DNA of 44,326 bases from Chlorobiota bacterium. Lineage in GTDB: Bacteria > Bacteroidota > Bacteroidia > Bacteroidales > JAADGE01. The first letter of the stretch is position 1; each line of letters starts with the position of its first letter. Where the stretch lies: the NCBI GenBank assembly GCA_013152535.1, contig JAADGE010000063.1, positions 1 through 44,326 of the forward strand, written 5' to 3'. Made by a program: the position numbers and the translations under genes. The notes below the pieces were generated by a model. It had not been told where the DNA came from, did no database searches, and saw only the letters and a list, made by a program, of their open reading frames with translations. Positions 9,910-31,620 of this stretch are shown here, piece by piece.

Positions 9910-10881
9910 ATGAATAAAATTAAAAAAATAGCTGTTTTTACATCCGGAGGAGATTCCCCCGGAATGAATGCTGCAATCAGGGCAGTTGTTCGAACCGCCC
10001 TTGCCCATAATTTGGAAATTATGGGAATTAACAGAGGATATCAGGGAATGATTGAAAATGATTTTATTAAATTGAAGTCAAAATCAGTCAGGAATATTAT
10101 TCAACGAGGCGGTACAATTCTTCGAACGGCAAGAAGCGAAGAATTTAAAACTGCGAAAGGAAGGCAAAAAGCATACGATAATTTAAAAAAACACGAAATA
10201 AATGCTGTTGTTGTAATAGGCGGAGACGGGAGTTTTAAAGGTGCAGGAATTTTTTCGCAGGAATACGATATTCCTTTTGTAGGAATGCCAGGTACCATTG
10301 ATAATGATATGTTCGGAACAGATTATACGATTGGTTTTGATACAGCTTTGAATACGGTTACTGAAGCTATTGATAAAATTAAAGATACGGCATTTTCTCA
10401 TGACAGAACTTTTTTTGTTGAAGTAATGGGGCGTGATGCAGGATTTATTGCTTTAAAAGCAGGTATTGCCACCGGAGCCGAAATGGTTTTAATTCCTGAA
10501 GTTGAGGGACAGGAAAAAAAATTAGAAGAACTTCTGAAAAATACTGAAAAAAGCTCTAATATTATTATTGTTGCCGAAGGAAATAATATCGGCGGTGCTA
10601 ATGAAGTGGCTAAAAAATTCGGAAGAAAATATAAAAACCATGGTATCAGGGTAAATATACTGGGGCACATGCAAAGAGGCGGTTCTCCTTCTGCTTTTGA
10701 CAGGTATCTTTCCAGCAGATTGGGCGTTGCTGCTGTTGATGCTTTGATTGATAATCAAAGAAGCGTTATGGTCGGTTATACTAATCATGAAGTTACTCTT
10801 GTTCCTTTTAATAAAACAATAAAAGGAAAACGTAATGTCGGAGAGGAATTACTTCGAGTAAATGACATTCTTGCAAAATAA
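9910..10881 (+). CDS. pfkA: ATP-dependent 6-phosphofructokinase
   Basis: This 323-residue protein has the length and motifs of bacterial PfkA. TSGGDSPGMN forms the ATP loop, GGDGS (104-108) carries the Gly typical of ATP donors, PGTIDND (127-133) holds the catalytic Asp, and FVEVMGRDAGFIAL and GHMQRGGSPSAFDR complete the active site. It catalyses the committed glycolytic step. It begins 3 bp after the PPi-type paralogue and ends 1 bp before mnmE. Having both types in tandem suggests conditional use of PPi or ATP. Confidence 0.92.
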   Translation: MNKIKKIAVFTSGGDSPGMNAAIRAVVRTALAHNLEIMGINRGYQGMIENDFIKLKSKSVRNIIQRGGTILRTARSEEFKTAKGRQKAYDNLKKHEINAVVVIGGDGSFKGAGIFSQEYDIPFVGMPGTIDNDMFGTDYTIGFDTALNTVTEAIDKIKDTAFSHDRTFFVEVMGRDAGFIALKAGIATGAEMVLIPEVEGQEKKLEELLKNTEKSSNIIIVAEGNNIGGANEVAKKFGRKYKNHGIRVNILGHMQRGGSPSAFDRYLSSRLGVAAVDALIDNQRSVMVGYTNHEVTLVPFNKTIKGKRNVGEELLRVNDILAK

Positions 10882-10882
10882 A

Positions 10883-12250
10883 ATGTTTGATGATACCATA
10901 GCAGCTGTTGCAACACCACCCGGAAGCGGTGCTGTTGCCGTTATAAGATTATCCGGCAGAGAAAGTTTTGAGATTATTACAAAAGTTTTCAGACCGAAAA
11001 AAGCAAGTTTAGAATTTAACCCATATTCAATTCGTTTCGGAACAATAAATGATAACAAGGAAATAATCGATGAAGTTTTAATAAGTATTTTTAAAGCTCC
11101 GCATTCATATACCGGAGAAGACTCTGTTGAAATTTCCTGTCACGGTTCTCTTTTCATTCAACAGAAAATTTTGAATTTGCTGATAAAAAACGGTGCACGC
11201 TTTGCCGGTCCGGGAGAATATACCCAAAGAGCATATCTTAACGGAAAGATGGACTTGTCGCAGGCAGAAGCAGTTGCAGATTTGATAGCTTCAGAGTCTG
11301 CTTCGGCTCATAAAGTTGCAATGCAACAGATGCGCGGTGGTTTCTCTTCCGATTTGCAGCAATTAAGAAGCCGACTTTTGAAATTTATTACGCTTATTGA
11401 ATTAGAACTTGACTTTAGTGAAGAAGATGTTGAATTTGCCGACAGAAAAGCCCTGAAAAAACTTATCGGTGATATTCAGAAACATATTTCCGATTTAATA
11501 CATTCTTTTGAACTCGGGAATGTTATAAAAAAAGGTATTCCGGTTGCAATTGTCGGTGAACCGAATGTCGGAAAATCTACTCTGCTGAACGTTCTTTTGA
11601 ACGAAGATAAAGCAATTGTGTCGGATATTGCGGGAACTACGCGTGATGCCGTAGAAGATATAATTTCAATAAAAGGAATATTATTTCGCCTTATTGATAC
11701 CGCAGGTATCAGAAAAACCGAAGACAAAGTGGAATCTCTCGGTATTGAGCGAACAATGGATAAAATTAAAAAATCGGACATTGTATTATTTATGATTAAT
11801 GCCGGAGATCCTGATGCTGAAAAAAAGATTTCCGAAATACAAAAAAAATCAAAAAACAAGCAATTAATTGTAGTTATAAATAAAATCGATAAAAATAAAT
11901 CTGAAAACTCACTGCATAAAATTTCAGGAAAAAATATTCAATACATTAAAATTTCCGCAAAGCATAAAACAAATATTGATAAGTTAAATGAACTTCTGAT
12001 TGAAACGGTAAACTATTCAGCTTTAAACAGCAGTGATACCATTATAACAAACATCCGCCACCTTAATGCTTTGCAAAATGCGTATCAATCATCATTACGA
12101 GTTTCGGAAGGCCTGGGAAATAATATATCCGGAGAATTTTTGGCACAGGACATACGCGAAATTCTGCAATATATCGGAGAAATTACCGGAGAGTTTACCA
12201 CAGATGAGGTTTTGGGCAACGTATTTGCCAACTTCTGTATCGGAAAGTAA
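10883..12250 (+). CDS. mnmE: tRNA uridine-5-carboxymethylaminomethyl modification GTPase MnmE
   Basis: MnmE works with MnmG to make cmnm5U at wobble position 34 of certain tRNAs. I chose the ATG at 10883 (MFDDTIAAVATPPGSGA), which matches the family N-terminus, over an in-frame ATG 21 bp upstream inside pfkA. The product is 455 residues. Its N-terminal formyl-THF-binding domain is followed by a helical domain split by a Ras-like G domain (GEPNVGKST, DTAG, NKID). The C-terminal Phe-Cys-Ile-Gly-Lys is conserved in the family, its Cys being needed for modification. Those last codons are also the attachment site of the downstream islands, so integration leaves the protein intact. Confidence 0.96.
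   Translation: MFDDTIAAVATPPGSGAVAVIRLSGRESFEIITKVFRPKKASLEFNPYSIRFGTINDNKEIIDEVLISIFKAPHSYTGEDSVEISCHGSLFIQQKILNLLIKNGARFAGPGEYTQRAYLNGKMDLSQAEAVADLIASESASAHKVAMQQMRGGFSSDLQQLRSRLLKFITLIELELDFSEEDVEFADRKALKKLIGDIQKHISDLIHSFELGNVIKKGIPVAIVGEPNVGKSTLLNVLLNEDKAIVSDIAGTTRDAVEDIISIKGILFRLIDTAGIRKTEDKVESLGIERTMDKIKKSDIVLFMINAGDPDAEKKISEIQKKSKNKQLIVVINKIDKNKSENSLHKISGKNIQYIKISAKHKTNIDKLNELLIETVNYSALNSSDTIITNIRHLNALQNAYQSSLRVSEGLGNNISGEFLAQDIREILQYIGEITGEFTTDEVLGNVFANFCIGK
12233..12250 (+). repeat. attL: mnmE 3' end attachment site
   Basis: TTCTGTATCGGAAAGTAA encodes the last MnmE residues (Phe-Cys-Ile-Gly-Lys-stop). Its 15-bp core TGTATCGGAAAGTAA (12236-12250) recurs exactly at 19449-19463 and with one change at 31606-31620. 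The same 18-bp position of trmE (mnmE) is the known target of Salmonella genomic island 1, which supports reading it as attB/attL. Confidence 0.85.
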
Positions 12251-12296
12251 CCACCACAAAATAAATAAATATAAAACATATTATAAACTTATAAAC

Positions 12297-12319
12297 AGCC
12301 CTATTTTAAGGGCTTTTTT
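12297..12319 (+). terminator. Rho-independent terminator after mnmE
   Basis: AGCCCT (12297-12302) pairs with AGGGCT (12309-12314) around a 6-nt loop and is followed by a run of T. It closes the DUF4296-pfk-pfkA-mnmE operon. It lies on the island side of the attachment site, so the element supplies it. Confidence 0.75.
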
Positions 12320-12355
12320 AATGTTTTAAAATTAATATTTATTTTGTAATAATCA

Positions 12356-12385
12356 TTGTTTGTTATGATATATTTTGTACCTTTG
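12356..12385 (+). promoter_or_regulatory. Promoter of the excisionase-integrase genes
   Basis: TTG (12356-12358), 19 bp, then TACCTTTG (12378-12385) is a good Bacteroidota-type promoter. The -7 element overlaps the first GTACCTT repeat, so a protein bound to those repeats could block transcription. Confidence 0.55.
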
Positions 12386-12409
12386 TTGTACCTTGAAGGT
12401 AAGGTACAA
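12377..12409. repeat. GTACCTT repeat cluster at left end of island 1
   Basis: GTACCTT occurs at 12377-12383 and 12388-12394 and inverted (AAGGTAC) at 12401-12407. TTGTACCTT (12386-12394) and AAGGTACAA (12401-12409) form a perfect 9-bp inverted repeat with a 6-nt spacer. The same word recurs near the right end of the island (19393-19408). These are candidate arm-type sites for the recombinase or excisionase. Confidence 0.6.
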
Positions 12410-12484
12410 ATATGTTTCCTTTTTAGGCGAAATTATGGCACTTAAAGACACTTATTGCAACTTAATAACATTTAATGATATTTA

Positions 12485-12835
12485 ATGAGTTCTAATATAA
12501 AGATAAAAAGAGTATGTGTGTATTGTAATAAGGAGTTTACAGCCCGAACAACTAAAACAAAATACTGTTCACTGGATTGTAACCGAAAAGATTACAAGAA
12601 AAGGATGAAAGAAAAAAAGATACAAGCATCTAATAAAGAAACATCACTTAAAATTAACAAACCTTTATTTGACATTCAAGAAAAAGAGTTTTTAAATGTA
12701 AAAGAAGCATCTATTTTATTAGGTTGTTCAGTCCGTACAATGTATAGATTAATAGAAAAGGGGCAAATCAAATCGGTTAATTTAGGACAAAGAATTACAA
12801 GAATTAAACGTTCTGAATTAAATAAACTGTTTTAA
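12485..12835 (+). CDS. Zinc-finger plus HTH_17 excisionase-like protein
   Basis: The 116-residue product has an N-terminal treble-clef-like zinc site, CVYC (CxxC) followed by CSLDC (CxxxC), within residues 11-35. After a basic linker comes an excisionase-family helix-turn-helix at about 68-116 (FLNVKEASILLGCSVRTMYR, then the wing VNLGQRITRIKRSEL). Proteins of this type often sit just before tyrosine recombinases in Bacteroidota elements and act as recombination directionality factors. The recombinase gene starts 10 bp downstream. Confidence 0.8.
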   Translation: MSSNIKIKRVCVYCNKEFTARTTKTKYCSLDCNRKDYKKRMKEKKIQASNKETSLKINKPLFDIQEKEFLNVKEASILLGCSVRTMYRLIEKGQIKSVNLGQRITRIKRSELNKLF

Positions 12836-12845
12836 ACCATAAGCT

Positions 12846-14075
12846 ATGGCAATAAAAGTATCACTTCGCAAAAAGAGAATAACAGAATACAGAGAAAGTT
12901 TGTATTTAGATTTTTACCCTGCAATACCACACCCGAAAACCGGCAAGCCGACACGTAGGGAATTTTTAGGAATGTATGTATTTATTGATAAGGATGAAAT
13001 AAGAAAAGAGATTAAAGAAAAAAAGAAGCAAGGTAAGAATACTGAAAAATTAAAATTACTTATAAAAGAATTGCCTGTTTTATCTGAAAGCGAAAAAAAA
13101 CACAATACAGATACTTTAAATATTGCCAAAGAAATAAAACGAAAAAGACAGAATTTTTTAAACAAGCCTGAAATTTATACTGAATACGAAAAAGAACTAA
13201 AGAGAAAAAAAGAACTTGGCGAAGCAAGTTTTTTAAAATATTTTGAAACAGTAATGAATAAACGGCATGGCTCAAATTATGACAGTTGGCTTTCTGCTTA
13301 TAATTATATTATTTCTTTCAGCAACGGAAATTTAAAATTTGCAGACCTTAATGAAAGTTTTTTTGAGGATTTTAAAGACTATTTATTAAGTACAAAAAGT
13401 AAGCGAAGCAATAAATCAAAACTTTCTGTTAATACAGCCGTTTCATATTTCAATAAAGTAAAAGCAGTATTAAGACAGGCATACAAAGACGGGAAATTAG
13501 AAAAAGATATAAACGCAAAGATACAACCGATAAAACAAGAAGACACAAAAAAAGAATACCTTACACTTGATGAGTTAAACCGACTTGTGAAAACTGAATG
13601 CAATAATGATTTATTAAAACGTGCTTCTTTATTTTCTGCATTAACAGGTCTTAGATTTTCGGATATAAAAAAGCTGACTTGGAAAGAAATAATTTATGAA
13701 GCCGAACAAGGATATTCAATTGATTACAGGCAACAAAAAACTAAAAATATTGAACTTTTACCGATTTCGGAACAAGCCGTTTCATTGCTTGAAGAAAGGG
13801 GCGAACCGGAACAGCAAGTTTTTGAGGGCTTAACATATTCCGCTTTTCAAAATAAACATTTATACCAATGGTTAGGAAATGCCGGAATAACAAAAAACAT
13901 TACATTCCACAGTTTCAGACATACGTTTGCAACTTTGCAATTATTCAGCGGTACAGATATTACAACCGTTTCAAAGATGTTAGGACATAAAAGCCTTAAA
14001 ACAACTATGATTTACGCTAAAATCGTGGATGAGGCTAAACGTAAGGCAGCTAATAAGATTAAATTAGATATGTAA
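12846..14075 (+). CDS. Tyrosine recombinase/integrase
   Basis: A 409-residue phage-type integrase with an N-terminal arm-binding region (strands at about 4-50), a highly charged helical insert (50-125), a SAM-like core-binding domain (about 128-220) and a catalytic domain. Catalytic residues are visible: Arg270 (LTGLRFSDI), a Lys at 298 or 300, His355 and Arg358 (HSFRHTFAT), His381 (LGHKSLKTT) and nucleophile Tyr390 (MIYAKI). It is full length. Placement next to the left attachment site indicates that it drives integration at the mnmE 3' end. It is the only integrase found across both islands. Confidence 0.93.
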   Translation: MAIKVSLRKKRITEYRESLYLDFYPAIPHPKTGKPTRREFLGMYVFIDKDEIRKEIKEKKKQGKNTEKLKLLIKELPVLSESEKKHNTDTLNIAKEIKRKRQNFLNKPEIYTEYEKELKRKKELGEASFLKYFETVMNKRHGSNYDSWLSAYNYIISFSNGNLKFADLNESFFEDFKDYLLSTKSKRSNKSKLSVNTAVSYFNKVKAVLRQAYKDGKLEKDINAKIQPIKQEDTKKEYLTLDELNRLVKTECNNDLLKRASLFSALTGLRFSDIKKLTWKEIIYEAEQGYSIDYRQQKTKNIELLPISEQAVSLLEERGEPEQQVFEGLTYSAFQNKHLYQWLGNAGITKNITFHSFRHTFATLQLFSGTDITTVSKMLGHKSLKTTMIYAKIVDEAKRKAANKIKLDM

Positions 14076-14088
14076 AAACACTATAAAA

Positions 14089-15651
14089 ATGGCATTAATA
14101 ATTCATAATTCAGATAATAACGGAAAGAATTTCAAACATGAAATTGAAGAAAATATTCATAATAACTTTGAAGTTGCAAAAATAATTTCAAAGTTTCAAG
14201 ATTACGCAAAAGTAATTGATGAGTTTCAAAATATAGATACTGCACAAAAATATATTTTAAAAGAAATAAAACGTTTATCCGGTGGTAATTTAGTTCTTTC
14301 AGAAAGTGAAACAAAAGAATTAAAATCTATTTTCAGTAATCAATTAGAATTATCTAATAAAGCATATTCAGAATTAGGATTAGATAATATACCAATAGCA
14401 GAATATGAAAAAAGAAATGAGTTTGAAAAAAAGTTTAATACAAGTCTAAAGATTTCTTACAACACTCATAAATCAATATTAGAATTGTTGAATAAATACA
14501 ATTTTAAAGAAAATATTATAAGTTATCTTGAAAGACAATTGCCTATGAGTGAACATGAAAATTCAGAAAGAAGTTTAACAAAAATTGATAATAAATTTAT
14601 AGAAGATATTAGAACACATTTTTATGGAATAACAAGAATAATTTCTAGCAATGAAGATGAAAACTATAAAATTGTACCAAACGAATTTACACATGAATAT
14701 TTACTTAGTAATTTAATTATAAATAGAAATATTATTGAATATTATTATAAACCGTGTATTTGTTTAATTAAAGACAAAGAGTATGAAAAAGCAGTTGAAA
14801 AAGGATTTATCGGAAAAAAAGAAACAATGTTAATACCATATCCATTTATTTTTTATGGTGCTTATTTTAATCGAAATTCGTTACTTGAAAAATTATTTGA
14901 TTTAAAATATAGAAAAGAACTTTTATTAAATGGTAAGAAAGTAAAATATTTTGAAGACTTAACACCCTATTTTAAGGAATATGCAAAAGGCTTTGCAAAA
15001 GGATATAATGAGTTTGAAGCCGAATGTATTAATAAATATCTTAATGAGTATTCAGATAAAAATGATTTTTCAAAAAAAGTATTTGAATATGTTAATAAAA
15101 AAATTCTATTTGAACATGATTGGTTTAATAATGATAATTCAGGTTTTACTATAAGCAGTAAATCAAATTCTGATATTGAAACGATTACAGGTGCATACGA
15201 ACACGGAGAAAAACAAGGTTATTTTTACAGAGCTTGGAGTATTATTTTATCAAATAATGATTTGTATAAACCGTATTTTGATAAATTACAAGCCTCATCA
15301 ATTGAAAGAACACAGACCGAACAAAAAGAAATTAAATTTTCAGATTTTTTCGATTTGAATAAAATTGAATTATTAAAAATTGAAGAAATTCATAATACTT
15401 TTAAAAATGACAGAGGTAAAAAAATTGCAGCATTAATCCACCTACTTAAATCAATTCATGAGTTTATTGAAATAATCCCAAGTTCAAAGACAAAAAGTCT
15501 TAAAAGGTTTTATGAATTATTAACCGGAGAGTCTAAAAAATATGAAGCAGTAAGAAAATGTTTTGATGAAAAGAATAAATGGAATTATACAGATAAAGAT
15601 GAGGTACTACAATCCATTAAGAAAAAACTACATAAAATCATACAAAAATAA
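14089..15651 (+). CDS. Unknown 520-residue cargo protein
   Basis: I do not recognise this family with confidence. The protein is Lys/Glu/Asn-rich, mostly helical, without signal peptide or membrane helices, so it is probably cytoplasmic. It has three parts: a helical N-terminus (1-170), a middle region with LIPYPFIFYGAYF, and a C-terminal part (about 440-520). That last part has a DRGKKIAALIHLLK helix and then KYEAVRKCFDEKNKWNYTDK, resembling small C-terminal modules seen in regulatory proteins of Bacteroidota mobile elements. It starts 13 bp after the integrase stop and is probably co-transcribed with it. A hairpin at 15668-15683 (GGTTGT/ACAACC) follows. It may be cargo or an element regulator. 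Confidence 0.7.
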   Translation: MALIIHNSDNNGKNFKHEIEENIHNNFEVAKIISKFQDYAKVIDEFQNIDTAQKYILKEIKRLSGGNLVLSESETKELKSIFSNQLELSNKAYSELGLDNIPIAEYEKRNEFEKKFNTSLKISYNTHKSILELLNKYNFKENIISYLERQLPMSEHENSERSLTKIDNKFIEDIRTHFYGITRIISSNEDENYKIVPNEFTHEYLLSNLIINRNIIEYYYKPCICLIKDKEYEKAVEKGFIGKKETMLIPYPFIFYGAYFNRNSLLEKLFDLKYRKELLLNGKKVKYFEDLTPYFKEYAKGFAKGYNEFEAECINKYLNEYSDKNDFSKKVFEYVNKKILFEHDWFNNDNSGFTISSKSNSDIETITGAYEHGEKQGYFYRAWSIILSNNDLYKPYFDKLQASSIERTQTEQKEIKFSDFFDLNKIELLKIEEIHNTFKNDRGKKIAALIHLLKSIHEFIEIIPSSKTKSLKRFYELLTGESKKYEAVRKCFDEKNKWNYTDKDEVLQSIKKKLHKIIQK

Positions 15652-15724
15652 GTTGTAAGTTGTTTTTGGTTGTCTAAACAACCTTATCAAACTGAATAAC
15701 AGCACATTAAACACATATCATTAA

Positions 15725-15732
15725 TAAATTTG
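15725..15732 (+). promoter_or_regulatory. Candidate promoter of the TV-Pol operon
   Basis: TAAATTTG matches TAnnTTTG and lies 26 bp upstream of the first HTH gene of the replication module. No clear -33 element was seen. Confidence 0.4.
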
Positions 15733-15758
15733 TACTTTAATTAAAAAAATATTTTAGT

Positions 15759-16103
15759 ATGGATTTATTATTTGAAAACTTACCTACACAGGTAAATCAG
15801 TTATCTATAAAAATGGATAACATCGAAAAATTGTTGTTAGAAAAAAACGAACAACAAAAAACCGAACCCGAAGACCAACTTTTTTCAGTTGAACAAACTG
15901 CAAAATTCCTAAACTTAACAATTCCAACAATATATTCGAAGACAAGTAGAAAGGAATTGCCTGTAATGAAGCAAGGCAAACGCTTGTATTTTTCAAAATT
16001 TGAGTTAATCGAATATGTGAAGCGTGGGAAAAAACTATCTAATTATGAGATAGAACATGAAGCAAGTAATTATCTTAAAAAAAAAGGAGGCGATAATGAA
16101 TAA
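15759..16103 (+). CDS. HTH_17 excisionase-family DNA-binding protein
   Basis: The 114-residue protein starts with a coiled-coil-like helix (about 10-40) and then has a MerR/excisionase-type HTH at about 42-92: FSVEQTAKFLNLTIPTIYSK, then the wing PVMKQGKRLYFSKFEL. It is the second such protein in the island, and the first gene of a tightly overlapping operon leading to the polymerase. It may control replication or excision. Its end overlaps the next start by 8 bp. Confidence 0.8.
   Translation: MDLLFENLPTQVNQLSIKMDNIEKLLLEKNEQQKTEPEDQLFSVEQTAKFLNLTIPTIYSKTSRKELPVMKQGKRLYFSKFELIEYVKRGKKLSNYEIEHEASNYLKKKGGDNE
16083..16090 (+). promoter_or_regulatory. Strong Shine-Dalgarno site deciding the next start
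   Basis: AAAGGAGG, preceded by an A run, ends 5 bp before the ATG at 16096. Such a strong site is unusual in Bacteroidota, and it supports this ATG over an in-frame one 39 bp upstream. Confidence 0.65.
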
Positions 16104-16389
16104 CTCATCAAACACCCCTTTTAGTCAAGGCAAAGATAATCAAATTAATATTGTTTACAAAGTATTTCAGACCGGAACACCTAAAACAATGTTACAAGTA
16201 AGTAAAGAAACAGGCATTGAACGTGCAAATATTTGTAGGTATGTTGCTGAATTTAGAAAGCAAGATAACATACAAGTAGTAAGAAAAGGTATTTGTAGTA
16301 TATCAAAACACCGTGCAGGTTACTATACAACAAATAAAGATTTATTCAAAAAGAATAATCAGTTAAGCCTGTTTAGTGATGAGAGTTAG
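16096..16389 (+). CDS. Winged-helix-like DNA-binding protein of the element
   Basis: From the ATG at 16096 the product is 97 residues. The central part (about 20-80) reads as a winged helix: TPKTMLQVSKETGIERANIC as helix-turn-helix, then a second helix and a short wing (NIQVVRKGICSISKHRAGYY). Small proteins of this kind often precede TV-Pol genes and probably act in replication initiation or regulation. It overlaps the genes on both sides (8 and 11 bp), suggesting translational coupling. Confidence 0.75.
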   Translation: MNNSSNTPFSQGKDNQINIVYKVFQTGTPKTMLQVSKETGIERANICRYVAEFRKQDNIQVVRKGICSISKHRAGYYTTNKDLFKKNNQLSLFSDES

Positions 16390-17668
16390 TAAGCCGTTTA
16401 TTCTGCATTTGCCGACTTGTTTTGTAAGTGATTTGAAAGCATACTTAAAAGAGCATCCGCCCAACTTTAATTATAGTGAAGTGTATTTTTATTATATCAT
16501 TTATTATTTGTCTTATAAGATGCTTACAGTAAAAGAAAATAACGCTTTTATTGATATTAATATGCAATTCTTCAAGTCTGCAACTGTCAGTAATATAGAT
16601 AAATACATAATAATATTGAAAAATGGTTATTTTTTAGAAACTGATAAATTTTATTTGAAAGGTAAAAAGTCAATAGGATATAAAATTAATGAGAAATATA
16701 CAAACGTAGATGAGATAACTGAAATTAAGATTTTGCCTAAAATGAACCTTTATAAAAAGATGCAAAAAAGAATTATAAATAAAAAAGCACATTACAGCAG
16801 GTCGCCTTTTTACTTGCAGGAAATGAGAAAGGAATTTTTTGATTTGGAACTTGACTATAAAAAAGCGTTTCAATTTATTACTGATAATAAAGAAAACTAT
16901 AAAAATGCTTTAATTCATTATGCGGCAATTCAAAACTTACAAGATAAAAGGTTAAGATACTTCTTTAAAAGTAAAAGCAACAACCGATTAAACACTAATA
17001 TAACGAGCTTATGGAAAGAGTTAAGACAATTTTTTAAAGGCGACTATGTTAGTATTGATTTGGCAAATTCTCAACCTTTTTTTTTATCAATTCTAATTAA
17101 TACAATAATTAATTATGATAATATACACAGTACAGGTATTATGTATGATATGATATTAGATAAATCATTTAAAACCTTTGGTATTATTAGCTTAAAGAAA
17201 ATTTCAAAACTTAACCAAAAATCAAAAAAATCAAATTTGGTTAATTTATCATTGCTTATTGAAACAACAAAGAACGGTCTTTTTTATGAATATTTGCAAG
17301 AAGTTATTAAAGACAAAACCAGAGATGAGATAAAAAAAATCACATTTGAAATTTATTATTCTCAAAACTCATCTTACATAAAAAATAAACTTCTTTTCAA
17401 AAAAGCATTTCCGTACATACTTGAAGTTGTTGAAATTCTTAAAAGAAAAAATTATAAATCACTTTCAATATTTATGCAACAAATCGAAAGCTATATTTTT
17501 ATTGATTGTATTGCAAAGAAACTTGTTGAGGCTCAAATTATACCTTTAACAATACATGACAGCATAATAATAAAAAAACAGCACCATAAGAAAGTACTTG
17601 AAATAATGAAGCAAGTTTTTTCTGAACAAATCGGAATTATACCAACTTTTAAAACCGAAACATTATGA
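16379..17668 (+). CDS. TV-Pol-like family A polymerase
   Basis: This roughly 429-residue protein carries the core palm motifs of superfamily A polymerases (numbering from the GTG at 16376). Motif A is YVSIDLANSQP (catalytic Asp228). A motif B-like helix has R316, K320, F324 and Y328 at the usual spacing. Motif C is LTIHDSIII (His394-Asp395). Upstream, NRLNTNITSLWKELR resembles the conserved lead-in of TV-Pols, a family described in bacterial mobile elements and some DNA viruses and proposed to act as primase-polymerases. It has no 3'-5' exonuclease domain, so it is a minimal polymerase. I prefer the ATG at 16379, overlapping the previous gene. It probably replicates the excised element. Confidence 0.8.
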   Translation: MRVSKPFILHLPTCFVSDLKAYLKEHPPNFNYSEVYFYYIIYYLSYKMLTVKENNAFIDINMQFFKSATVSNIDKYIIILKNGYFLETDKFYLKGKKSIGYKINEKYTNVDEITEIKILPKMNLYKKMQKRIINKKAHYSRSPFYLQEMRKEFFDLELDYKKAFQFITDNKENYKNALIHYAAIQNLQDKRLRYFFKSKSNNRLNTNITSLWKELRQFFKGDYVSIDLANSQPFFLSILINTIINYDNIHSTGIMYDMILDKSFKTFGIISLKKISKLNQKSKKSNLVNLSLLIETTKNGLFYEYLQEVIKDKTRDEIKKITFEIYYSQNSSYIKNKLLFKKAFPYILEVVEILKRKNYKSLSIFMQQIESYIFIDCIAKKLVEAQIIPLTIHDSIIIKKQHHKKVLEIMKQVFSEQIGIIPTFKTETL

Positions 17669-18180
17669 AAGAACATCATTTTAAAAGAAGCAAATTAGCG
17701 GAACTGATTGAATATAAAGATTTTATTATAATGTATGCAGCTTATAATGAAAGTCAAACATTATTAAATAAATATAAGGCAGGAATACCTTTAAATAAAA
17801 GACTTTCAAACTCAAAAGGTGCAAACTTATTAACTCGTTTAGTGATACTGAAATTAAGGCAATTAGGACACTTTGCAGAACGTACAGGAAATACCGGTAC
17901 ATACCGGCAAGGCAAACAATATACAGCCTTAAACGGATATAGAACACATGAAAAAGGTATGTTTGTAAAAGGGCAAGGAACAAACGGAACAAGCGACATA
18001 AAAGCAATTATCAAAGGTCGCTTTGTTGCAATAGAAATTAAGTATAAAAAAGACCGAATGAGTAAAACACAAATAAAATATAAAAATGAAGTTGAACGAG
18101 CCGGCGGAACTTATTTAATAGTTTCACACATGAACGACTTATTAAGTTATTTGAAAAGTAATTATTCCTTAATAATTTAG
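17665..18180 (+). CDS. VRR-NUC-type PD-(D/E)XK nuclease
   Basis: The 171-residue protein starts in an ATGA overlap with the polymerase stop. Its C-terminal half is a VRR-NUC-like nuclease: GTSDIKAII (Asp111), VAIEIKYKKD (Glu124, Lys126) and KTQIKYKNEVERAGGTYLIV (Gln136). This gives D-x12-E-x-K plus the family Gln. The N-terminal half (1-90) is helical and basic, with GTYRQGKQYTALNGYR. Iyer and colleagues reported nucleases near TV-Pols, and the coupling here suggests it processes replication or integration intermediates of the element. The substrate is unknown. Confidence 0.8.
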   Translation: MKEHHFKRSKLAELIEYKDFIIMYAAYNESQTLLNKYKAGIPLNKRLSNSKGANLLTRLVILKLRQLGHFAERTGNTGTYRQGKQYTALNGYRTHEKGMFVKGQGTNGTSDIKAIIKGRFVAIEIKYKKDRMSKTQIKYKNEVERAGGTYLIVSHMNDLLSYLKSNYSLII

Positions 18181-18186
18181 GTTTGT

Positions 18187-18792
18187 ATGGCAAAATTTCC
18201 GACATATCCGACTTTGTACGATAGTGTAAATCAAATAAGTATTACAAAACTAAAAGAATGGAATTACTTAAAACCTCATCAAATATCAAAGGGTATTATT
18301 ACTTGGAGTATAAACGGCAAGGAAACTGCAAGTATTTCATTTCTAATAAATACTTTTGTAGAGCAGCATTTTATTATTTTAGATTATAAATACAGAGATA
18401 AACCTATAAAATATAAGGTTTTTCTTAAAGTTCAATATTCTAATTTAGGTAAAGGATATTTTTATTACTTTATTTGCCCTGTAACCGGAAAACAAGCCCG
18501 AAAACTTTATTTATCCGGTGGTTATTTTTTGCATCGTACAGCTTTTAACGGTTGTATGTATGAATGTCAAATAAAAAGTAAGTACATGCGAAAACTTGAT
18601 AAGCTGTTCGGTGCACATTTTGATTATGATAAACTTTATGATGAACTATACAGAAAATATTTTAAAAAGTTTTATGCTGGAAAGCCGACTAAAAGATATA
18701 AACGAATAATAAACCAATTAAAAAAAACATCACAGATCAATTATTCAGATTTTAATACGTTGCTTATAAATAGTAAGTCAAAAATTTTATAA
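18187..18792 (+). CDS. Conserved-looking unknown protein of the replication module
   Basis: A 201-residue basic protein, 6 bp after the VRR-NUC gene and surely in the same operon. It has beta-rich N-terminal strands (GIITWSINGKETASISFLIN), a possible metal-binding segment with FICPVTGKQARKLYLSGGYF and NGCMYECQ, and a helical basic C-terminus. I recognise the CPxTGK...RKLYL pattern as recurring in Bacteroidota mobile regions but cannot assign a function. Position suggests a DNA-handling role. No signal peptide is present. Confidence 0.72.
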   Translation: MAKFPTYPTLYDSVNQISITKLKEWNYLKPHQISKGIITWSINGKETASISFLINTFVEQHFIILDYKYRDKPIKYKVFLKVQYSNLGKGYFYYFICPVTGKQARKLYLSGGYFLHRTAFNGCMYECQIKSKYMRKLDKLFGAHFDYDKLYDELYRKYFKKFYAGKPTKRYKRIINQLKKTSQINYSDFNTLLINSKSKIL

Positions 18793-18847
18793 AAAGAAAA
18801 ACATAACATACCTTTACAATAATATTTTTAACTAAAAGAATATAATT

Positions 18848-19324
18848 ATGAAACATCTTTTTTCAAATTTATTGTTAATAGTTTTTTTTGTTAGTGTTTT
18901 TAGTTCTTGTTACGTATATCCGCATTTAGAACATTCTGAATATACTTATGCAGTTGATTTAAATAAGTATTCAAATGAAGATTTTCTTTTTACAAGTGAA
19001 GGGTATAACGGAAAATATAAATCTTGTGGTTTTGTCAAAGCCGAATTATTTCCGGAAGTAAAATATTTATTAAGAACGGAAACCTTTGATGAAACTAAAT
19101 ATCAAAGAGAAGGTAATTTTATAATTGAAAAGATTTCGATTGATGAAATTATTAATAATTTTTACAAAAAAGCAATCAATATTAATGCAAATGCAGTTAT
19201 AAGGTTAAAAATTGTGAAAAAACGAAACCCCAAATTAAAACAGTATCCTCAATATGAAAGTAAATTAAATGATGTTAGTGAAGGATATTTTATTTCAGGT
19301 TTTGCTATTAAACGTATTGATTAA
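18848..19324 (+). CDS. Small lipoprotein, probable island cargo
   Basis: The 158-residue product has a lipoprotein signal (hydrophobic stretch and lipobox SSC, Cys21). The mature part mixes strands and helices: ISIDEIINNFYKKAININAN, then AVIRLKIVKK. That resembles small envelope proteins that build a conserved heavy-metal-binding-like or YbjQ-like beta fold, but I do not assign a family. A possible -7 element TACCTTTA lies about 30 bp upstream. It is the last gene before the right attachment site. Confidence 0.7.
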   Translation: MKHLFSNLLLIVFFVSVFSSCYVYPHLEHSEYTYAVDLNKYSNEDFLFTSEGYNGKYKSCGFVKAELFPEVKYLLRTETFDETKYQREGNFIIEKISIDEIINNFYKKAININANAVIRLKIVKKRNPKLKQYPQYESKLNDVSEGYFISGFAIKRID

Positions 19325-19392
19325 AAGACCTAAAATTATGCAAATTCATAAAATTATCAATTGTTGTTTTTTGGCTAAAAAGCACTTTAAAA

Positions 19393-19408
19393 GTACCTTA
19401 TTTGTACC
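19393..19408. repeat. GTACCTT repeat near right end of island 1
   Basis: GTACCTT (19393-19399) and GTACC (19404-19408) repeat the words seen at the left end (12377-12409), 41 bp inside the right attachment core. Symmetric placement fits arm-type recombinase sites. Confidence 0.5.
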
Positions 19409-19448
19409 GATTTTTTAGAAACCCTTAAATAATAAGGTTATTACTTTT

Positions 19449-19463
19449 TGTATCGGAAAGTAA
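19449..19463 (+). repeat. Internal att site between islands 1 and 2
   Basis: TGTATCGGAAAGTAA is identical to the mnmE end. In the MnmE frame, ACTTTT precedes it, so the stretch would still encode Thr-Phe-Cys-Ile-Gly-Lys-stop. It shares a longer match with the site at 31606 (TACTTTyTGTATCGGAAArTAAATA), longer than either shares with mnmE. It is attR of island 1 and the left boundary of island 2. Confidence 0.82.
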
Positions 19464-19534
19464 ATAAAATTGCATCTGTCCGATAATTTATATTTCCTTT
19501 TTTAACAACATTCTCTTTTGAGAAATAAATTGTT

Positions 19535-19542
19535 TAATTTTG
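19535..19542 (+). promoter_or_regulatory. Candidate promoter for the restriction-modification gene
   Basis: TAATTTTG fits TAnnTTTG, 33 bp before the start. The nearest upstream TTG (19518-19520) is closer than usual, so the call is weak. Confidence 0.35.
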
Positions 19543-19575
19543 GTCTTATTATCTCTTAATTAAATTGAGACCTGA

Positions 19576-22500
19576 ATGAACCTCCAAGAATACATCATAA
19601 CCATAAACAAACGCTACCAATCAGGCATAGCAAGAGAACATACTTACCGAACAGATTTAGAAAGTTTAATTCGTAAACTCGTTCCCGAAGTAGAAATTAC
19701 AAACGAACCGGCAAATGTAACCGATTGCGGTAATCCTGATTATGTTATTACTCGTAAAAAAATACCTGTCGGGTTTATTGAAGCCAAAGACATAGGCAAA
19801 GACATCACAAGCAAAACCTATAAAGAACAATTCGACAGATACCGCAAAGCACTTGATAATTTAATCATTACCGATTATATGTATTTTCGGTTTTACGACC
19901 ATGGAAACCTTATACATGAAATTAAAATTGCCGAAATTGATAACAATACAATTAAACCCTTAACGGAAAATTTCGCACAATTTGAAAACCTCATAAAAAA
20001 CTTTTGTTCTTTCATCGGTCAAACTATAAAGTCAAGCAAAAAACTGGCAGAAATGATGGCAGCAAAAGCAAGACTTTTGCAAAACATTTTGGAACGTGCC
20101 GTAAGCTCCGATGAACAAACAGAAGAAAACACCTCATTGAGAGAACAATATAAAACGTTCAAAAATATTCTTATTCACGATTTAACTCCGAAAACATTTG
20201 CCGATATTTATGCACAAACACTTGCCTACGGAATGTTTGCCGCACGCCTGCACGATAAAACATTAGATGATTTCAGCCGACAAGAAGCTGCCGAACTGAT
20301 ACCGAAATCAAACCCTTTTTTACGTAAACTTTTCGGATATGTTGCCGGACCCGATATTGACGAAAGAATTGTAAGAACAGTTGATAACCTTGCAAATGTT
20401 TTTTTGGCAACCAATGTTGAAGAACTTTTAAAGAATTTTGGAAAAAGCACACAAACACACGACCCGATTATTCATTTTTACGAAACATTTTTGGCGGAAT
20501 ACGACCCGAAACTTCGTAAAAGCAGAGGTGTTTGGTACACACCCGAGCCGGTTGTAAATTTCATAGTCCGTGCCGTTGATGATATTCTGAAAACAGAATT
20601 TAATTTGCCCGACGGTTTAGCCGACACCACAAAAACAAAAATTAAAGTAAAAGAACAAGGCAACGATAAAACTGTAGAAAAGGAAGTCCATAAAGTACAA
20701 ATTCTTGACCCTGCAACCGGCACGGGAACATTTCTTGCCGAAGTTGTAAAACACATTTACAAGCATAAATTTAAAGCCATGCAAGGTGTTTGGAGTTCCT
20801 ATATTGATGAACATTTAATACCTCGCCTGAACGGTTTTGAGCTTCTGATGGCATCCTATTCAATGGCACATCTTAAACTCGATATGCTTTTAACCGAAAC
20901 CGGCTATAAAGCAACCAAAAACCAACGTTTTAATATTTACCTTACCAATTCGCTTGAAGAACATCACCCCGATACAGGAACCCTGTTCTCAAATTGGTTA
21001 AGCACAGAAGCAAACGAAGCAAATCATATAAAACGAGATACGCCTGTGATGTGTGTTATCGGGAATCCGCCTTATTCCGGTATTTCAATAAATAAAGGGA
21101 AATGGATTACTAATTTAATCGAAGATTATAAATATGTTGACGGTGTTCATTTTGGAGAACGTAAACATTGGTTGCAAGACGATTATGTGAAGTTTTTACG
21201 TTTTGGTGAACATTTTATTAATAAAAACGGAGAAGGTGTTCTAGCATTCATTAATAATCATAGTTTTATTGACAATCCTACATTCAGAGGAATGCGTTGG
21301 CATTTGCTGAATAGTTTTGATAAAATATACATCATAGATTTACATGGAAATAGTATAAAAAAAGAAGTTTGTCCGAATGGAAGTAAAGATGAAAATATAT
21401 TTGATATTACAGCAGGTGTCTCAATCAATCTATTTATTAAAATAGGGAAAAAGAAAAAAGGCAAACTTGCCGAAGTTTTTCATTTTGATGCATGGGGAAA
21501 ACGAAAGGAAAAATATGAATATCTTTGGAATAATGATATTAAATCTATTGCTTTTAATGAAGTTTCTTATCAAAAACCATTTTATTTTTTTCAACCGAAA
21601 AATTTTGAATTGGAAAAAAGATATTTAAACTTTATAAATTTATCCAAACTATTCATAAAAAATAATACAGGTGTATGTTCTCAACGTGACATTATAACCA
21701 TGCAGTATAATAAAAGTGAATTGGTAAATATTTTGAAAGATTTCTCTGAATTACAGGTAGATGAAATAAGAAAAAAATATAGATTAACCAAAGACGGCAG
21801 GGACTGGAAAATTATAACTGCAAAAGAAAATGTATTATCTTATTCAAACTTTGAGGAAAAAATAAATAAAGTTCAATATAGAATATTTGACAGTCGATTT
21901 ACTTTCTACTCAAATAAATCAAAAGGTTTTATTGCATATCCAAGATATAATGTCTTCAATCATCTCTTAAAAGATAATTTATGTTTTTTAATGAATCGAA
22001 CAGTTAAAGGGATTCCATTTAACCACGCATTTATAACAGATGAAATTCCTGATTTACATTTATTTGAAACGGCAAATGCGTCAATATATGGTAGTCCGTT
22101 ATACTTATACCCCAATAAAGAAACAGATGGAATGTTTTCCGAAGAAGGCTTATCCGAAAAAGGCAGAAAACCCAATTTAAATCCGGAAATCGTTCAAAAA
22201 ATTGCAGATAAATTGGGTTTGGAATTTGTTGCGGAGAAACCCTTCGACTCCGCTCAGGGAGGGGCATTGAGCGAAGTCGAAATGGCACCCATTGATATTT
22301 TAGATTACATTTATGCCGTATTGCATAGCCCCAATTACAGAGAAAAATACAAAGAATTTCTGAAAATAGATTTCCCGAGAGTTCCGTATCCCAAAAACAC
22401 AAAAACATTTTGGCAACTCGTAAAACTCGGCGGAGAAATTCGGCAAATACATTTATTGGAAAGCCCGAAAGTAAATGAATTTATTACATCATACCCGGTT

Positions 22501-22851
22501 GACGGCACAAACCAAATTACAACAAAAATTGCCAAAAAAGATTGGGAAATAACCGGAAATATTCAAGACCTGTCAGGTTTTGGAAACCTGACAGGTCTGC
22601 CCAAAGGCAGAATATACATCAACGAAACACAATACTTTGATAACATTCCGCTTATTGCATGGGAATTTTACATCGGCGGCTATCAACCGGCTCAAAAATG
22701 GTTAAAAGACCGAGCACCCAAAAAGGGACAAGAAGGCAGAACCCTAACATACGAAGACATCACCCACTATCAAAAAATAATAGTCGCACTTTCGGAAACG
22801 GATAGGATTATGAAGGAAATTGATGAAATTGAGATAGAATTATATAAGTGA
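19576..22851 (+). CDS. Single-chain restriction endonuclease-adenine methyltransferase (Type IIG/ISP-like)
   Basis: The 1091-residue protein combines cutting and protection. An N-terminal PD-(D/E)XK nuclease has Asp55 (NPDYVIT) and Glu69-Ala-Lys71 (GFIEAKDIG). A helical linker follows. The N6-adenine methyltransferase has WYTPEPVVNFIV (about 320-331), AdoMet motif I DPATGTGTFL (378-387) and catalytic NPPY (497-500). A C-terminal region of about 500 residues probably recognises the DNA target. It lacks the helicase of true Type ISP enzymes (usually about 1500 residues), so Type IIG-like action is likelier. Two hairpin repeats are inserted in frame in its last quarter. It probably cuts unmodified incoming DNA. 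Confidence 0.87.
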   Translation: MNLQEYIITINKRYQSGIAREHTYRTDLESLIRKLVPEVEITNEPANVTDCGNPDYVITRKKIPVGFIEAKDIGKDITSKTYKEQFDRYRKALDNLIITDYMYFRFYDHGNLIHEIKIAEIDNNTIKPLTENFAQFENLIKNFCSFIGQTIKSSKKLAEMMAAKARLLQNILERAVSSDEQTEENTSLREQYKTFKNILIHDLTPKTFADIYAQTLAYGMFAARLHDKTLDDFSRQEAAELIPKSNPFLRKLFGYVAGPDIDERIVRTVDNLANVFLATNVEELLKNFGKSTQTHDPIIHFYETFLAEYDPKLRKSRGVWYTPEPVVNFIVRAVDDILKTEFNLPDGLADTTKTKIKVKEQGNDKTVEKEVHKVQILDPATGTGTFLAEVVKHIYKHKFKAMQGVWSSYIDEHLIPRLNGFELLMASYSMAHLKLDMLLTETGYKATKNQRFNIYLTNSLEEHHPDTGTLFSNWLSTEANEANHIKRDTPVMCVIGNPPYSGISINKGKWITNLIEDYKYVDGVHFGERKHWLQDDYVKFLRFGEHFINKNGEGVLAFINNHSFIDNPTFRGMRWHLLNSFDKIYIIDLHGNSIKKEVCPNGSKDENIFDITAGVSINLFIKIGKKKKGKLAEVFHFDAWGKRKEKYEYLWNNDIKSIAFNEVSYQKPFYFFQPKNFELEKRYLNFINLSKLFIKNNTGVCSQRDIITMQYNKSELVNILKDFSELQVDEIRKKYRLTKDGRDWKIITAKENVLSYSNFEEKINKVQYRIFDSRFTFYSNKSKGFIAYPRYNVFNHLLKDNLCFLMNRTVKGIPFNHAFITDEIPDLHLFETANASIYGSPLYLYPNKETDGMFSEEGLSEKGRKPNLNPEIVQKIADKLGLEFVAEKPFDSAQGGALSEVEMAPIDILDYIYAVLHSPNYREKYKEFLKIDFPRVPYPKNTKTFWQLVKLGGEIRQIHLLESPKVNEFITSYPVDGTNQITTKIAKKDWEITGNIQDLSGFGNLTGLPKGRIYINETQYFDNIPLIAWEFYIGGYQPAQKWLKDRAPKKGQEGRTLTYEDITHYQKIIVALSETDRIMKEIDEIEIELYK
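22243..22281. repeat. Palindromic repeat inserted in frame in the RM gene
   Basis: TTCGACTCCGCTCA (22243-22256) and TGAGCGAAGTCGAA (22268-22281) form 14-bp inverted arms with one mismatch. The insertion encodes PFDSAQGGALSEVE. I recognise this word as a dispersed palindromic repeat seen inside and between genes of several Bacteroidota. It is GC-richer than its surroundings. Confidence 0.75.
22566..22598. repeat. Perfect 15-bp hairpin repeat in frame in the RM gene
   Basis: AGACCTGTCAGGTTT (22566-22580), TGG, AAACCTGACAGGTCT (22584-22598) is a perfect inverted repeat. It encodes DLSGFGNLTGL. It looks like a dispersed REP-like element common in Bacteroidota genomes, different from the repeat 300 bp upstream. 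Confidence 0.78.
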
Positions 22852-22879
22852 TTTTAATTTGAAAAGTAAAACTAAAAAC

Positions 22880-23692
22880 ATGAAATTTTCAGAAAGATAT
22901 GGGTACACATCTATCAGAGAAACAATGCAATTTGAAAGTATTGATGAAAGATTAAGGAATAGACTATGGAACGATATAACAATTTTTTATTTCAATAAGT
23001 TATCAAGAGATCCTAATGCTAATGTTGACAATATATTTGCTTATATTTGGGTTGAGTTTTTTATTAAAAGAATGGATGATTTAGATGGATATAGTATAGA
23101 AGGATATGTCAAAAAATACTTAAAAGAATGGTTTTACAAAGAATCAGATTGGTATGATAAACTTAATTTTATTGAGTTTTTACTTAAAGAGTCTTTAAAT
23201 ATAATAGATAATTTTATTTCAAGAATAAATATTTCATTAGAAAAGGAAATGTCAGCATATAGAATAGTTGATAAGAAAATAGTACAGATTACAGATAAAA
23301 CAGAAATTAATGAGATTGAAGGTGCAATTAATATTAGCTCATCTGATAAAAATGTACAAATGCATCTCAAAACTGCATTAGGATATCTGTCTGACAGGAA
23401 TAATCCGGATTACAGGAATTCAATAAAGGAATCAATATCAGCTATTGAAAGTTACAGTAAAATAATTACAGGTGATGATAAAATAAAGTTTGGTAAAGCA
23501 ATAAAAAATATTGAAATGCACCCCTCATTAAGAGAGGCATTTTCAAAACTATACGGATGGACAAGTGATGAGAGCGGTATACGTCATTCATTTAAAATTA
23601 ACGGATATGAAATAAAATTTGAAGAAGCGAAATACATGCTTGTTTCTTGTTCTGCATTTATTAATTATTTGAAAATAAAACATGCTAAATAA
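22880..23692 (+). CDS. AbiJ-NTD4-type abortive infection protein
   Basis: I start this at the ATG at 22880 (MKFSERYGYTSIRETMQFES), which matches the N-terminus of AbiJ_NTD4 proteins, rather than an upstream in-frame TTG. The product is 270 residues. The N-terminal domain covers about 1-140. The C-terminal half is helical and HEPN-like, with KESISAIESY and the family ending DESGIRHSFK then AKYMLVSCSAFINYL. Proteins with these domains are predicted abortive-infection effectors. It lies 28 bp after the restriction-modification gene, probably co-transcribed, so phage defence is likely. The trigger and target are unknown. Confidence 0.82.
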   Translation: MKFSERYGYTSIRETMQFESIDERLRNRLWNDITIFYFNKLSRDPNANVDNIFAYIWVEFFIKRMDDLDGYSIEGYVKKYLKEWFYKESDWYDKLNFIEFLLKESLNIIDNFISRINISLEKEMSAYRIVDKKIVQITDKTEINEIEGAINISSSDKNVQMHLKTALGYLSDRNNPDYRNSIKESISAIESYSKIITGDDKIKFGKAIKNIEMHPSLREAFSKLYGWTSDESGIRHSFKINGYEIKFEEAKYMLVSCSAFINYLKIKHAK

Positions 23693-23740
23693 ATAGTTTA
23701 AATATATTAATTTTACAATATATGCTTTCAATCAACTAAA

Positions 23741-24556: not shown

Positions 24557-24559
24557 ATT

Positions 24560-25402: not shown

Positions 25403-25448
25403 GACATAAAATTTCAATATGAATTTAATATTTAAATAGAATTATATT

Positions 25449-29690: not shown

Positions 29691-29755
29691 CCTTCTATAC
29701 AGGAAGAGAAATTTGATTATTTAGTGATTTTTGTGTTATTATTATTCTTAATTGA

Positions 29756-31537: not shown

Positions 31538-31605
31538 TAAAAGTTCTCATCTATATTTCACTTCCATTGCAGAAATGCCCTGTATTTGCTGACAGCAATA
31601 CTTTC

Positions 31606-31620
31606 TGTATCGGAAAATAA
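31606..31620 (+). repeat. Right-hand att site of island 2
   Basis: TGTATCGGAAAATAA differs from the mnmE end by one base and shares 23 of 25 surrounding bases with the internal site. In the MnmE frame the bases before it read VFADSNTFCIGK-stop, so the Phe-Cys-Ile-Gly-Lys end is again preserved. It marks the probable right boundary of the islands. Confidence 0.78.

Follow-up and report, generated by a model that had tools for sequence, protein, structure and literature searches.

A TV-Pol in a compact mnmE-integrated element whose sister elements carry other replication proteins

A 7.2-kb integrative element in mnmE

The sequence analysed here, called the window, is a whole contig of 44,326 bases (JAADGE010000063.1, assembly GCA_013152535.1, Chlorobiota bacterium) from a 3.3-Mb genome of 92 contigs. 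By its sequence, it holds a compact integrative element of 7.2 kb (12236-19448) that is inserted at the 3' end of mnmE (trmE) and flanked by copies of TTYTGTATCGGAAAGTAA; the element encodes a TV-Pol, a polymerase of the family A type. Nine genes make up the element: those for an excisionase-like helix-turn-helix (HTH) protein, an integrase, a protein of 520 amino acids (aa), an HTH_17 protein, a small HTH protein, the TV-Pol, a nuclease, a 201-aa protein that we name U201, and a 158-aa protein (Table 1). Five of them, from HTH_17 to U201 (15759-18792, genes 1 to 5 below), form a tightly packed run of open reading frames (ORFs) on the plus strand. Genes 1 and 2 overlap by 47 nt, or by less if gene 2 begins at an internal ATG; genes 2 and 3 overlap by 14 nt (11 if gene 3 is counted from an alternative ATG at 16379), genes 3 and 4 by 4 nt, and a 6-nt gap separates genes 4 and 5. 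An initial annotation of this DNA described the five overlapping or nearly touching genes as we find them, and its naming of gene 1 as HTH_17 holds. The boundary it drew around the five genes was too narrow, as the natural unit is the whole element between the mnmE repeats. It also called gene 2 a winged helix; that protein reads as HTH-like by its sequence pattern, and library scans (Pfam, PHROGs, NCBIfam and PADLOC) gave it no family above cut-off.

The ends of the element are marked by attachment (att) repeats. The copy that covers the last mnmE codons, TTCTGTATCGGAAAGTAA, recurs at 19446 and 31603 with one difference each; no other repeat of this region in the window is longer. The 18-bp att pattern, which was drawn from the copies themselves, occurs three times in the window against 0.01 expected. 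A tRNA gene was considered as integration target and rejected, as the window contains no tRNA and the repeat covers the mnmE stop codon.

Table 1. Features of the mnmE element and of the adjoining second island (positions in the window).
Feature	Position	Strand	Evidence or remark
Host mnmE (trmE), 3' end is the integration target	10862..12250	+	Pfam MnmE_helical, TrmE_N, MMR_HSR1
attL copy TTCTGTATCGGAAAGTAA, last mnmE codons	12233..12250	+	one of three window copies
HTH_17/excisionase-like protein, candidate recombination directionality factor	12485..12835	+	HTH_17 43.5 bits; TIGR01764 'excise' 40.8 bits, cut-off 28.8
Tyrosine integrase, mnmE-targeting type	12846..14075	+	Phage_integrase 2.4e-20, Phage_int_SAM_5 7.6e-18; 43-64% identity to integrases of 12 mnmE elements
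Variable gene between integrase and HTH_17	14089..15651	+	520 aa; no family; phmmer found itself alone among ORFs compared
Gene 1, HTH_17 (AlpA/excisionase-like) regulator, chassis gene	15759..16103	+	114 aa; HTH_17 39 bits, cut-off 27; kin in other elements
Gene 2, small HTH/winged-helix-like protein, chassis gene	16057..16389	+	110 aa; 20 profile matches; occurs with TV-Pol and other replication proteins
Gene 3, TV-Pol, family A-like, no exonuclease domain seen; replication slot	16376..17668	+	430 aa from GTG; motifs, model, fold
Gene 4, predicted small PD-(D/E)xK nuclease, VRR-NUC/Hjc-like; replication slot	17665..18180	+	171 aa; motif; near TV-Pol in L338, L339, L044
Gene 5, U201, constant last chassis gene	18187..18792	+	201 aa; distant kin of zinc-ribbon-like family, small alphaproteobacterial plasmids
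Lipoprotein-like gene between U201 and right att	18848..19324	+	158 aa; no family match; lipoprotein-like by eye
att copy TTTTGTATCGGAAAGTAA, right end of 7.2-kb element, left end of next island	19446..19463	+	repeat
Type ISP restriction-modification enzyme, second island	19576-22851		
AbiJ_NTD4/PDC-S32, second island	22859-23692		
HipA-like/PDC-M66A, second island	23741-24556		
Endonuclease_1 with secretion tail, second island	26007-29690		
HNH_3, second island	29808-30119		
CoiA_N, second island	30257-31312		
Third att copy TTCTGTATCGGAAAATAA, right end of second island (19449-31605)	31603..31620	+	repeat

Fold, motifs and distribution of the TV-Pol

Gene 3 had no significant match in the four libraries and is a TV-Pol by its motifs and predicted fold. 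Across the window protein and 19 relatives, R204, R217, D228, S232-Q233-P234, Y304, K320, P346, E371, H394 and D395 are invariant (20 of 20 rows, residues counted from the GTG), and they include the hairpin arginine (R204) and fingers lysine (K320) that mark the TV-Pol family. When 52 viral relatives are added, R204, D228, SQP, Y304, K320, E371, H394 and D395 are kept, and both aspartates are invariant in all 53 rows of that alignment, which is numbered one lower (D227 and D394). The fingers arginine, R316, is present in all six rows of a smaller alignment and replaced in a few rows of the 20-row alignment (L035, L041 and L043; numbers with L denote loci and those with G genomes). These motifs agree with those described for TV-Pols by Iyer, Abhiman and Aravind in 2008, who proposed from gene context that the family acts as primase-polymerases (PMC2579912).

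The predicted structure places the protein among family A polymerases. An AlphaFold model built on the viral-set alignment (predicted local distance difference test 86.7, predicted template modelling score 0.84) has a thumb, palm and fingers and lacks an exonuclease domain. Foldseek matched the model to 120 PDB chains at E <= 0.001, and the best 50 of the 120 were all family A DNA polymerases. The best 50 VIA-align matches were likewise all family A polymerases, over residues 139-429. Against the Klenow fragment (1kfd), residues 142-429 of the model aligned with 530-924 of the chain (Z 13.4, root-mean-square deviation 3.4 over 236 residues), and D228 and D395 both fall within the matched region. 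The initial annotation's description of gene 3 as a polymerase with family A motifs and no exonuclease was thus borne out by the model. Residues 1-136 lie outside the polymerase-matched region, and their sequence pattern suggests that they may resemble a winged helix. Searches of PDB sequences with the TV-Pol and U201 profiles gave no match up to E 1. The host's own PolA is encoded on another contig.

TV-Pol relatives are spread thinly over related genomes. Counting the window's own genome, a match was found in 24 of 395 genomes of the class with the protein as query and in 30 of 395 with a profile, in 10 of 334 genomes of the order, and in 1 of 21 of the family. Matches also occurred in six huge uncultured-phage records and in one Hymenobacter plasmid. 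Pattern searches with the single protein in genome contigs and in viral contigs returned nothing, and whole-genome and alignment searches were required to find these relatives. The relatives at L032-L035 and at the viral loci L169-L248 come from viral contigs and from records of very large uncultured phages (595-735 kb); many of them have a conserved gene of ~190 aa downstream and one of ~470 aa upstream (clusters of 37 and 33, respectively).

A nuclease recurs beside TV-Pol

From its D...ExK residues, gene 4 is predicted to encode a small PD-(D/E)xK nuclease. D111, E124 and K126 are invariant in the eight rows of its family. Its match to the endonuclease family phrog_93 (2.4e-8) was better than its match to VRR_NUC; none of the eight rows matched VRR_NUC at E <= 0.01, and one matched Hjc at 0.0018.

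The neighbours of TV-Pol were counted in 27 cellular loci, which comprise the window, 20 regions from the 31 other matches, and six of seven regions from the order. The seven were drawn from nine other genomes of the order with a TV-Pol match, with G450 and G607 outside the set, and L342 was left out as a fusion protein whose best profile was RepA25. The gene-4 family nuclease lies near TV-Pol in four of the 27 loci (the window, L044, L338 and L339), and the small HTH protein also in four (the window, L337, L338 and L339). HTH_17 was found in nine, a lower bound since short HTH-like ORFs in L036 and L337 escaped its profile; an integrase occurs in 11 and U201 in one. The small HTH profile itself had 20 matches, four of which were used to build it, with L076 and L132 representing one region.

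The nuclease adjoins TV-Pol or lies one gene apart in the window, L338 and L339, and these three loci also carry the small HTH protein. L338 has, in this order, genes for an integrase, a 306-aa protein, HTH_17, the small HTH protein, the nuclease and TV-Pol; L339 has an integrase, a 337-aa protein, HTH_17, the nuclease, the small HTH protein and TV-Pol. The nuclease of L044 is farther away, downstream of TV-Pol: an ORF of 171 aa and three short ones lie between, and by eye some of these resemble pieces of an insertion sequence. The motif region of the L044 nuclease is partly altered. Members of the nuclease family also occur without TV-Pol, near an integrase and HTH_17, together with RepA-like and DUF6371 proteins (L111) or a BT4734-like protein (L114). 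In L337, the small HTH protein and TV-Pol are present without the nuclease or U201. The genes neighbouring TV-Pol fell into 76 clusters; among the 67 representatives scanned, no nuclease name appeared in the 25 of 31 Pfam families listed, a scan that omitted four window genes and five others. A context remark in PMC2579912 stated that TV-Pols are never linked to nucleases, and the recurrence of this nuclease beside TV-Pol contradicts that statement.

A fusion in L342, from the same order, supports a replication role for TV-Pol. This 584-aa protein (1691-3445) joins a TV-Pol core (residues 59-115 and 125-255) to a RepA-like AAA_25 domain (275-566), which suggests that TV-Pol may work with a RepA-like helicase. 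In the ORF that follows, residues 32-80 resemble the first 57 residues of the window nuclease (32% identity, E 7e-6).

A shared chassis and its last gene, U201

Elements in other Bacteroidota share a constant chassis with the window: integrase, variable gene, HTH_17, small HTH protein, replication slot, U201 and att. In the window, mnmE direct repeats enclose the integrase, HTH_17, a replication slot and U201. An alignment search with U201 yielded 50 loci in named genomes, Bacteroidota by their record titles. In 13 of these, mnmE ends in the att motif; a second copy follows downstream in nine of them, and in seven of those nine a full-length U201 lies between the copies. L079 has two copies and L087 one, and in L121, L124 and L136 the second copy follows U201 by ~150-165 bp. 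The motif was absent from 80 viral TV-Pol loci, from 20 class TV-Pol regions and from seven order regions. Compared with the window integrase, those of the mnmE elements mostly show 53-64% identity (43% in L087, 45% in L119), and their U201 proteins show 33-60% identity to the window U201. Tandem elements were also seen at mnmE, with three att copies in L136 as in the window, and with an att copy in L249 followed by HTH_17 and the integrase of the next element.

U201 accompanies diverse replication proteins. Among 39 full-length U201 genes, 27 have a replication-protein match on their own strand no more than five ORFs upstream, and none of these matches is a TV-Pol. Four of the 12 others have less than 1 kb of upstream sequence (L132, L133, L145 and L155). 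Extending the search to 9.5 kb, up to the integrase or the previous U201, adds L142, L153 and L156, where the match lies far upstream only, and gives 30 of 39, leaving nine without. Within 9.5 kb of the 39 genes we counted HTH_17 in 21, an integrase in 19 and the small HTH protein in 13; the replication proteins were DUF6371 in 19, a CRI-type Rep in 10, RepA-like in six, D5-like in six, BT4734-like in two and TV-Pol in none. Ten shorter U201 ORFs are excluded from both counts, and L076-L095, which partly duplicate L119-L168, were not added.

The window is the sole locus with both proteins among 107 loci with a TV-Pol match and 72 with a U201 match. U201 had been annotated as an unknown protein, and indeed none of the four libraries matched it. 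It had also been proposed as an overlooked component of the TV-Pol apparatus, with the expectation that its family would be found beside other TV-Pols. None of the other 26 cellular TV-Pol loci has it; because the window is alone in this, we assign U201 to the chassis and not to TV-Pol, so that it is an overlooked component of the element instead. Taken with the neighbour counts and the occurrence of the nuclease without TV-Pol, gene context indicates that TV-Pol repeatedly occurs with two modular parts, the nuclease and the small HTH protein, and that U201 is a part of the mnmE chassis.

Some clues to U201 come from its model and its distant relatives. The protein is strand-rich in residues 33-115, and Foldseek gave its model no PDB match at E <= 0.001. 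Whirly-like binding of single-stranded DNA was considered and rejected, as Whirly folds reached Z 3.2-4.4, which is background. Relatives on small plasmids (L097 and L098) show CP..GC plus CRHC; in the Bacteroidota form, the first of these cysteine parts alone remains, and we therefore withhold the zinc-ribbon label from the window protein. The plasmid relatives follow a CRI-profile protein in L096 and, in L097, a protein whose REP_ORF2-G2P match falls just short of the cut-off, and the gene before the relative in L098 had no Rep match.

Exchange of the replication slot

Closely related elements hold different proteins in the replication slot. A CRI-type Rep occupies it in L079 and L082, RepA-like plus DUF6371 proteins in L121, L122, L129, L130 and L136, D5-like plus DUF6371 proteins in L125 and L165, and DUF3987 plus DUF6371 proteins in L124 and L131. 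The integrases of these eleven loci are 52-64% identical to that of the window, and their U201 proteins 35-58%. L082 has the same integrase type (52%) beside its CRI-type Rep, and neither mnmE nor the att motif was found in its 20 kb. The Pfam families behind the slot profiles are Phage_CRI (L089 and L137), AAA_25, DUF6371, D5_N/DUF5906, BT4734-like_N and DUF3987 (L123, L124 and L131). Members of the CRI profile at L079, L082, L085, L086, L128, L147 and L096 do not themselves match Phage_CRI; only the profile groups them with the others, and the alignment shows a shared YxK stretch.

The AAA_25, D5 and DUF3987 types all resemble P-loop helicases, and the five slot types, though different, are for this reason not all unrelated. 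The firm branches of an integrase tree force at least three changes for the RepA-like class, three for the DUF6371-only class and two for the D5-like class. It is the gene content of close relatives, as read from their sequences, and not the history of the integrase tree that demonstrates slot exchange.

Two further positions are of note. The gene between the integrase and HTH_17 differs in most elements, with L082 and L136 alike over the first 70 residues shown, and its position may be a second cargo slot. A gene of ~200 aa lies between DUF6371 and U201 in L121 (9351-9953), with similar genes in L087, L122, L125, L136 and L249; scans of the L087 and L121 copies gave no clear family, and it is perhaps another slot gene.

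Surroundings of the element

Between the second and third att copies lies an island of 12.2 kb, whose genes include a type ISP restriction-modification enzyme and two other defence candidates. A fourth match, to a looser 14-bp att motif (TGTATTGGCAAATA), lies on the minus strand at 44007-44020, near the contig end. In the congeneric genome G012 (L273, ~2700-3086), a decayed U201 with 67% identity and two stops stands just after mnmE, a remnant of an element that sat there before. One gene of the window's right flank has weak matches (30-33%) in L273, and the congener G010 has two U201 fragments elsewhere, on contig C23.

Proposed mechanism and alternative explanations

The sequence shows the ends of the element, its chassis, the exchange of its slot, the fold and motifs of its TV-Pol and the recurrence of the nuclease; how the element excises, replicates and primes DNA, and what the nuclease and U201 do, we infer as follows. 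The element probably excises, replicates transiently with TV-Pol as its primase-polymerase, and reintegrates, in line with the self-replication after excision that the initial annotation suggested. The excisionase-like protein and the integrase would excise it between the mnmE repeats, and HTH_17 and the small HTH protein would activate or mark an origin. TV-Pol would then lay, and possibly extend, primers on single-stranded DNA opened by a host helicase, with most synthesis done by the host replisome; as no helicase was recognised in the element, host helicase and replisome must help unless the 520-aa gene does so. The nuclease could resolve joint molecules or multimers, or trim ends. Since relatives of U201 adjoin Rep-like genes on plasmids, we propose that U201 suits any replication enzyme, as a general nucleic-acid-binding helper, and the circle would finally reintegrate at mnmE.

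Several results weigh against this reading. Comparison of the TV-Pol profile with host-type PolA, a check suggested with the initial annotation, aligned motif C only (E 0.0066, probability 5.8%; E 0.025, 2.0%), so the polymerase assignment rests on the fold and on motifs that are as described for TV-Pols. Gene 4, which the initial annotation named a VRR-NUC nuclease, scored 16.1 bits against VRR_NUC (PF08774), under the cut-off of 23.8. No nuclease of its family was seen in 23 of the 27 TV-Pol loci, including that of the closest TV-Pol relative found (L337, 65-66% identity). Library scans recognised no helicase in the 7.2-kb element, unlike D5- or Cch-linked TV-Pols. No origin was found in the element and no Rfam RNA in 12200-31700, and the element's repeats are short, with no iterons. 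Among 10 congeneric mnmE regions, several of which are on contigs that end within a few kb, none joins mnmE to the window's right flank as an empty or excised site would. On the integrase tree (16 rows), slot types need nine changes against a minimum of four, and shuffles average 8.9; four of the 13 inner branches are firm, and L128 and L137 have long branches. Because so few branches are firm and the labels are placed as in shuffles, slot exchange rests on gene content.

A phage satellite of the phage-inducible chromosomal minimalist island (PICMI) type offers a different account, one that we consider rather unlikely, in which the element stays dormant in mnmE, is excised and amplified by TV-Pol upon helper infection, and is packaged in helper particles. 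PICMI115 is 6,110 bp long with an integrase, an AlpA regulator and a primase, and the PICMI search model includes HTH_17 (PF12728) among its AlpA families and DUF3987/DUF5906 for the primase (PMC10803314). The window similarly has an integrase, HTH_17 and a replication enzyme within 7.2 kb, the sisters L124 and L131 carry DUF3987, L125 and L165 match the profile of a DUF5906 protein, and the neighbouring island carries defence genes. However, the target is mnmE and not fis, the hosts are Bacteroidota and not Vibrionaceae, and neither a packaging gene nor a helper phage was identified. U201 relatives also sit beside Rep-like genes on small plasmids typed as non-mobilizable, which suggests a plasmid-like life.

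The two other alternatives concern single genes of the run. CcPol requires the small protein MP, with a predicted OB fold, for de novo priming (PMC7581432; PMC10061031), and U201, strand-rich and in the same operon as TV-Pol, might by analogy be a true partner, a subunit binding single-stranded DNA like MP of the staphylococcal cassette chromosome (SCC) mec that turns the polymerase into a primase. We regard this as improbable, given that none of the 26 cellular TV-Pol loci besides the window has U201, that in 27 of 39 loci the gene comes within five ORFs after a different replication enzyme, and that its model gave neither a Foldseek match at E <= 0.001 nor a Whirly score above background. 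The polymerase and nuclease might instead be cargo, a defence system and not a replication module. Polymerase- or reverse transcriptase-based anti-phage systems exist, and the next island has restriction and candidate defence genes; but TV-Pol, nuclease and U201 had no PADLOC match at E <= 0.01, the sister slots hold Phage_CRI-type, AAA_25, D5-like or DUF3987 proteins, and L342 fuses the TV-Pol core to a RepA-like helicase, all of which makes a defence role very improbable.

We thus favour transient replication of an excised mnmE element by TV-Pol, which makes the element a minimal, testable setting for a TV-Pol without a recognised helicase. Sister elements with closely related integrases and a HUH-type Rep or RepA-, D5- or DUF3987-type proteins in the slot amount to a natural swap experiment. 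A more speculative extension, possible if doubtful, is a plug-in slot in which fixed HTH_17, small HTH and U201 proteins accept at least five machineries, here TV-Pol and a nuclease without a helicase, with U201 as a universal replicon adaptor of a new family. If every slot type can work with U201, this protein would be a helper of mobile replicons in general, one that has distant relatives in small plasmids. The enzymes themselves are all of known kinds, whereas their combination, the slot and the family of U201 appear to be undescribed; in open-licence literature, searched by titles and the starts of abstracts, we found no description of this element family or of a TV-Pol and nuclease pair.

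Comparison with known systems

The window protein shares with the TV-Pol family (PMC2579912) a family A fold without exonuclease, a conserved arginine, the motif A and C aspartates and the fingers residues. Members of that family likewise lie in integrative elements, some with a lambda-type integrase, and have the same proposed role as primase-polymerases. The window TV-Pol differs in being coupled to a PD-(D/E)xK nuclease gene and in having no linked D5 helicase; its relative L342 has a RepA-like helicase fusion instead. CcPol-MP and PolA-SSB primases are comparable as mobile-element family A polymerases with small neighbours, for which priming has been shown (CcPol-MP) or proposed (PMC7581432; PMC10061031). 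In the 2020 SCCmec study, the authors stated that besides CcPol they knew of no biochemically studied TV-Pol (PMC7581432). SCC elements use large serine recombinases, rlmH as target, a Cch2 helicase and MP (PMC7581432; PMC10061031), whereas the window combines a tyrosine integrase with mnmE as target and has neither a recognised helicase nor a shown MP.

PICMI satellites are also minimal islands of an integrase, an AlpA/HTH_17 regulator, one replication protein and a few unknown genes, and three core proteins are needed for excision and replication of the 6-kb element (PMC10803314). DUF3987 in the window's sister elements is a further PICMI-like feature. PICMI elements sit beside fis in Vibrionaceae and are packaged by virulent phages (PMC10803314), in contrast to the window element, which lies in mnmE with TV-Pol replacing the primase. 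Islands of the SGI1 (Salmonella genomic island 1) type integrate in the 3' end of mnmE/trmE as well (PMC5397120), and SGI1 is reported to replicate like a plasmid (PMC7826253). It differs in being mobilized by IncA/IncC plasmids and replicated by a RepA related to those of IncN2/N3 (PMC5397120; PMC7826253). SGI1 is a precedent, in the same gene, for the replication proposed for the mnmE element.

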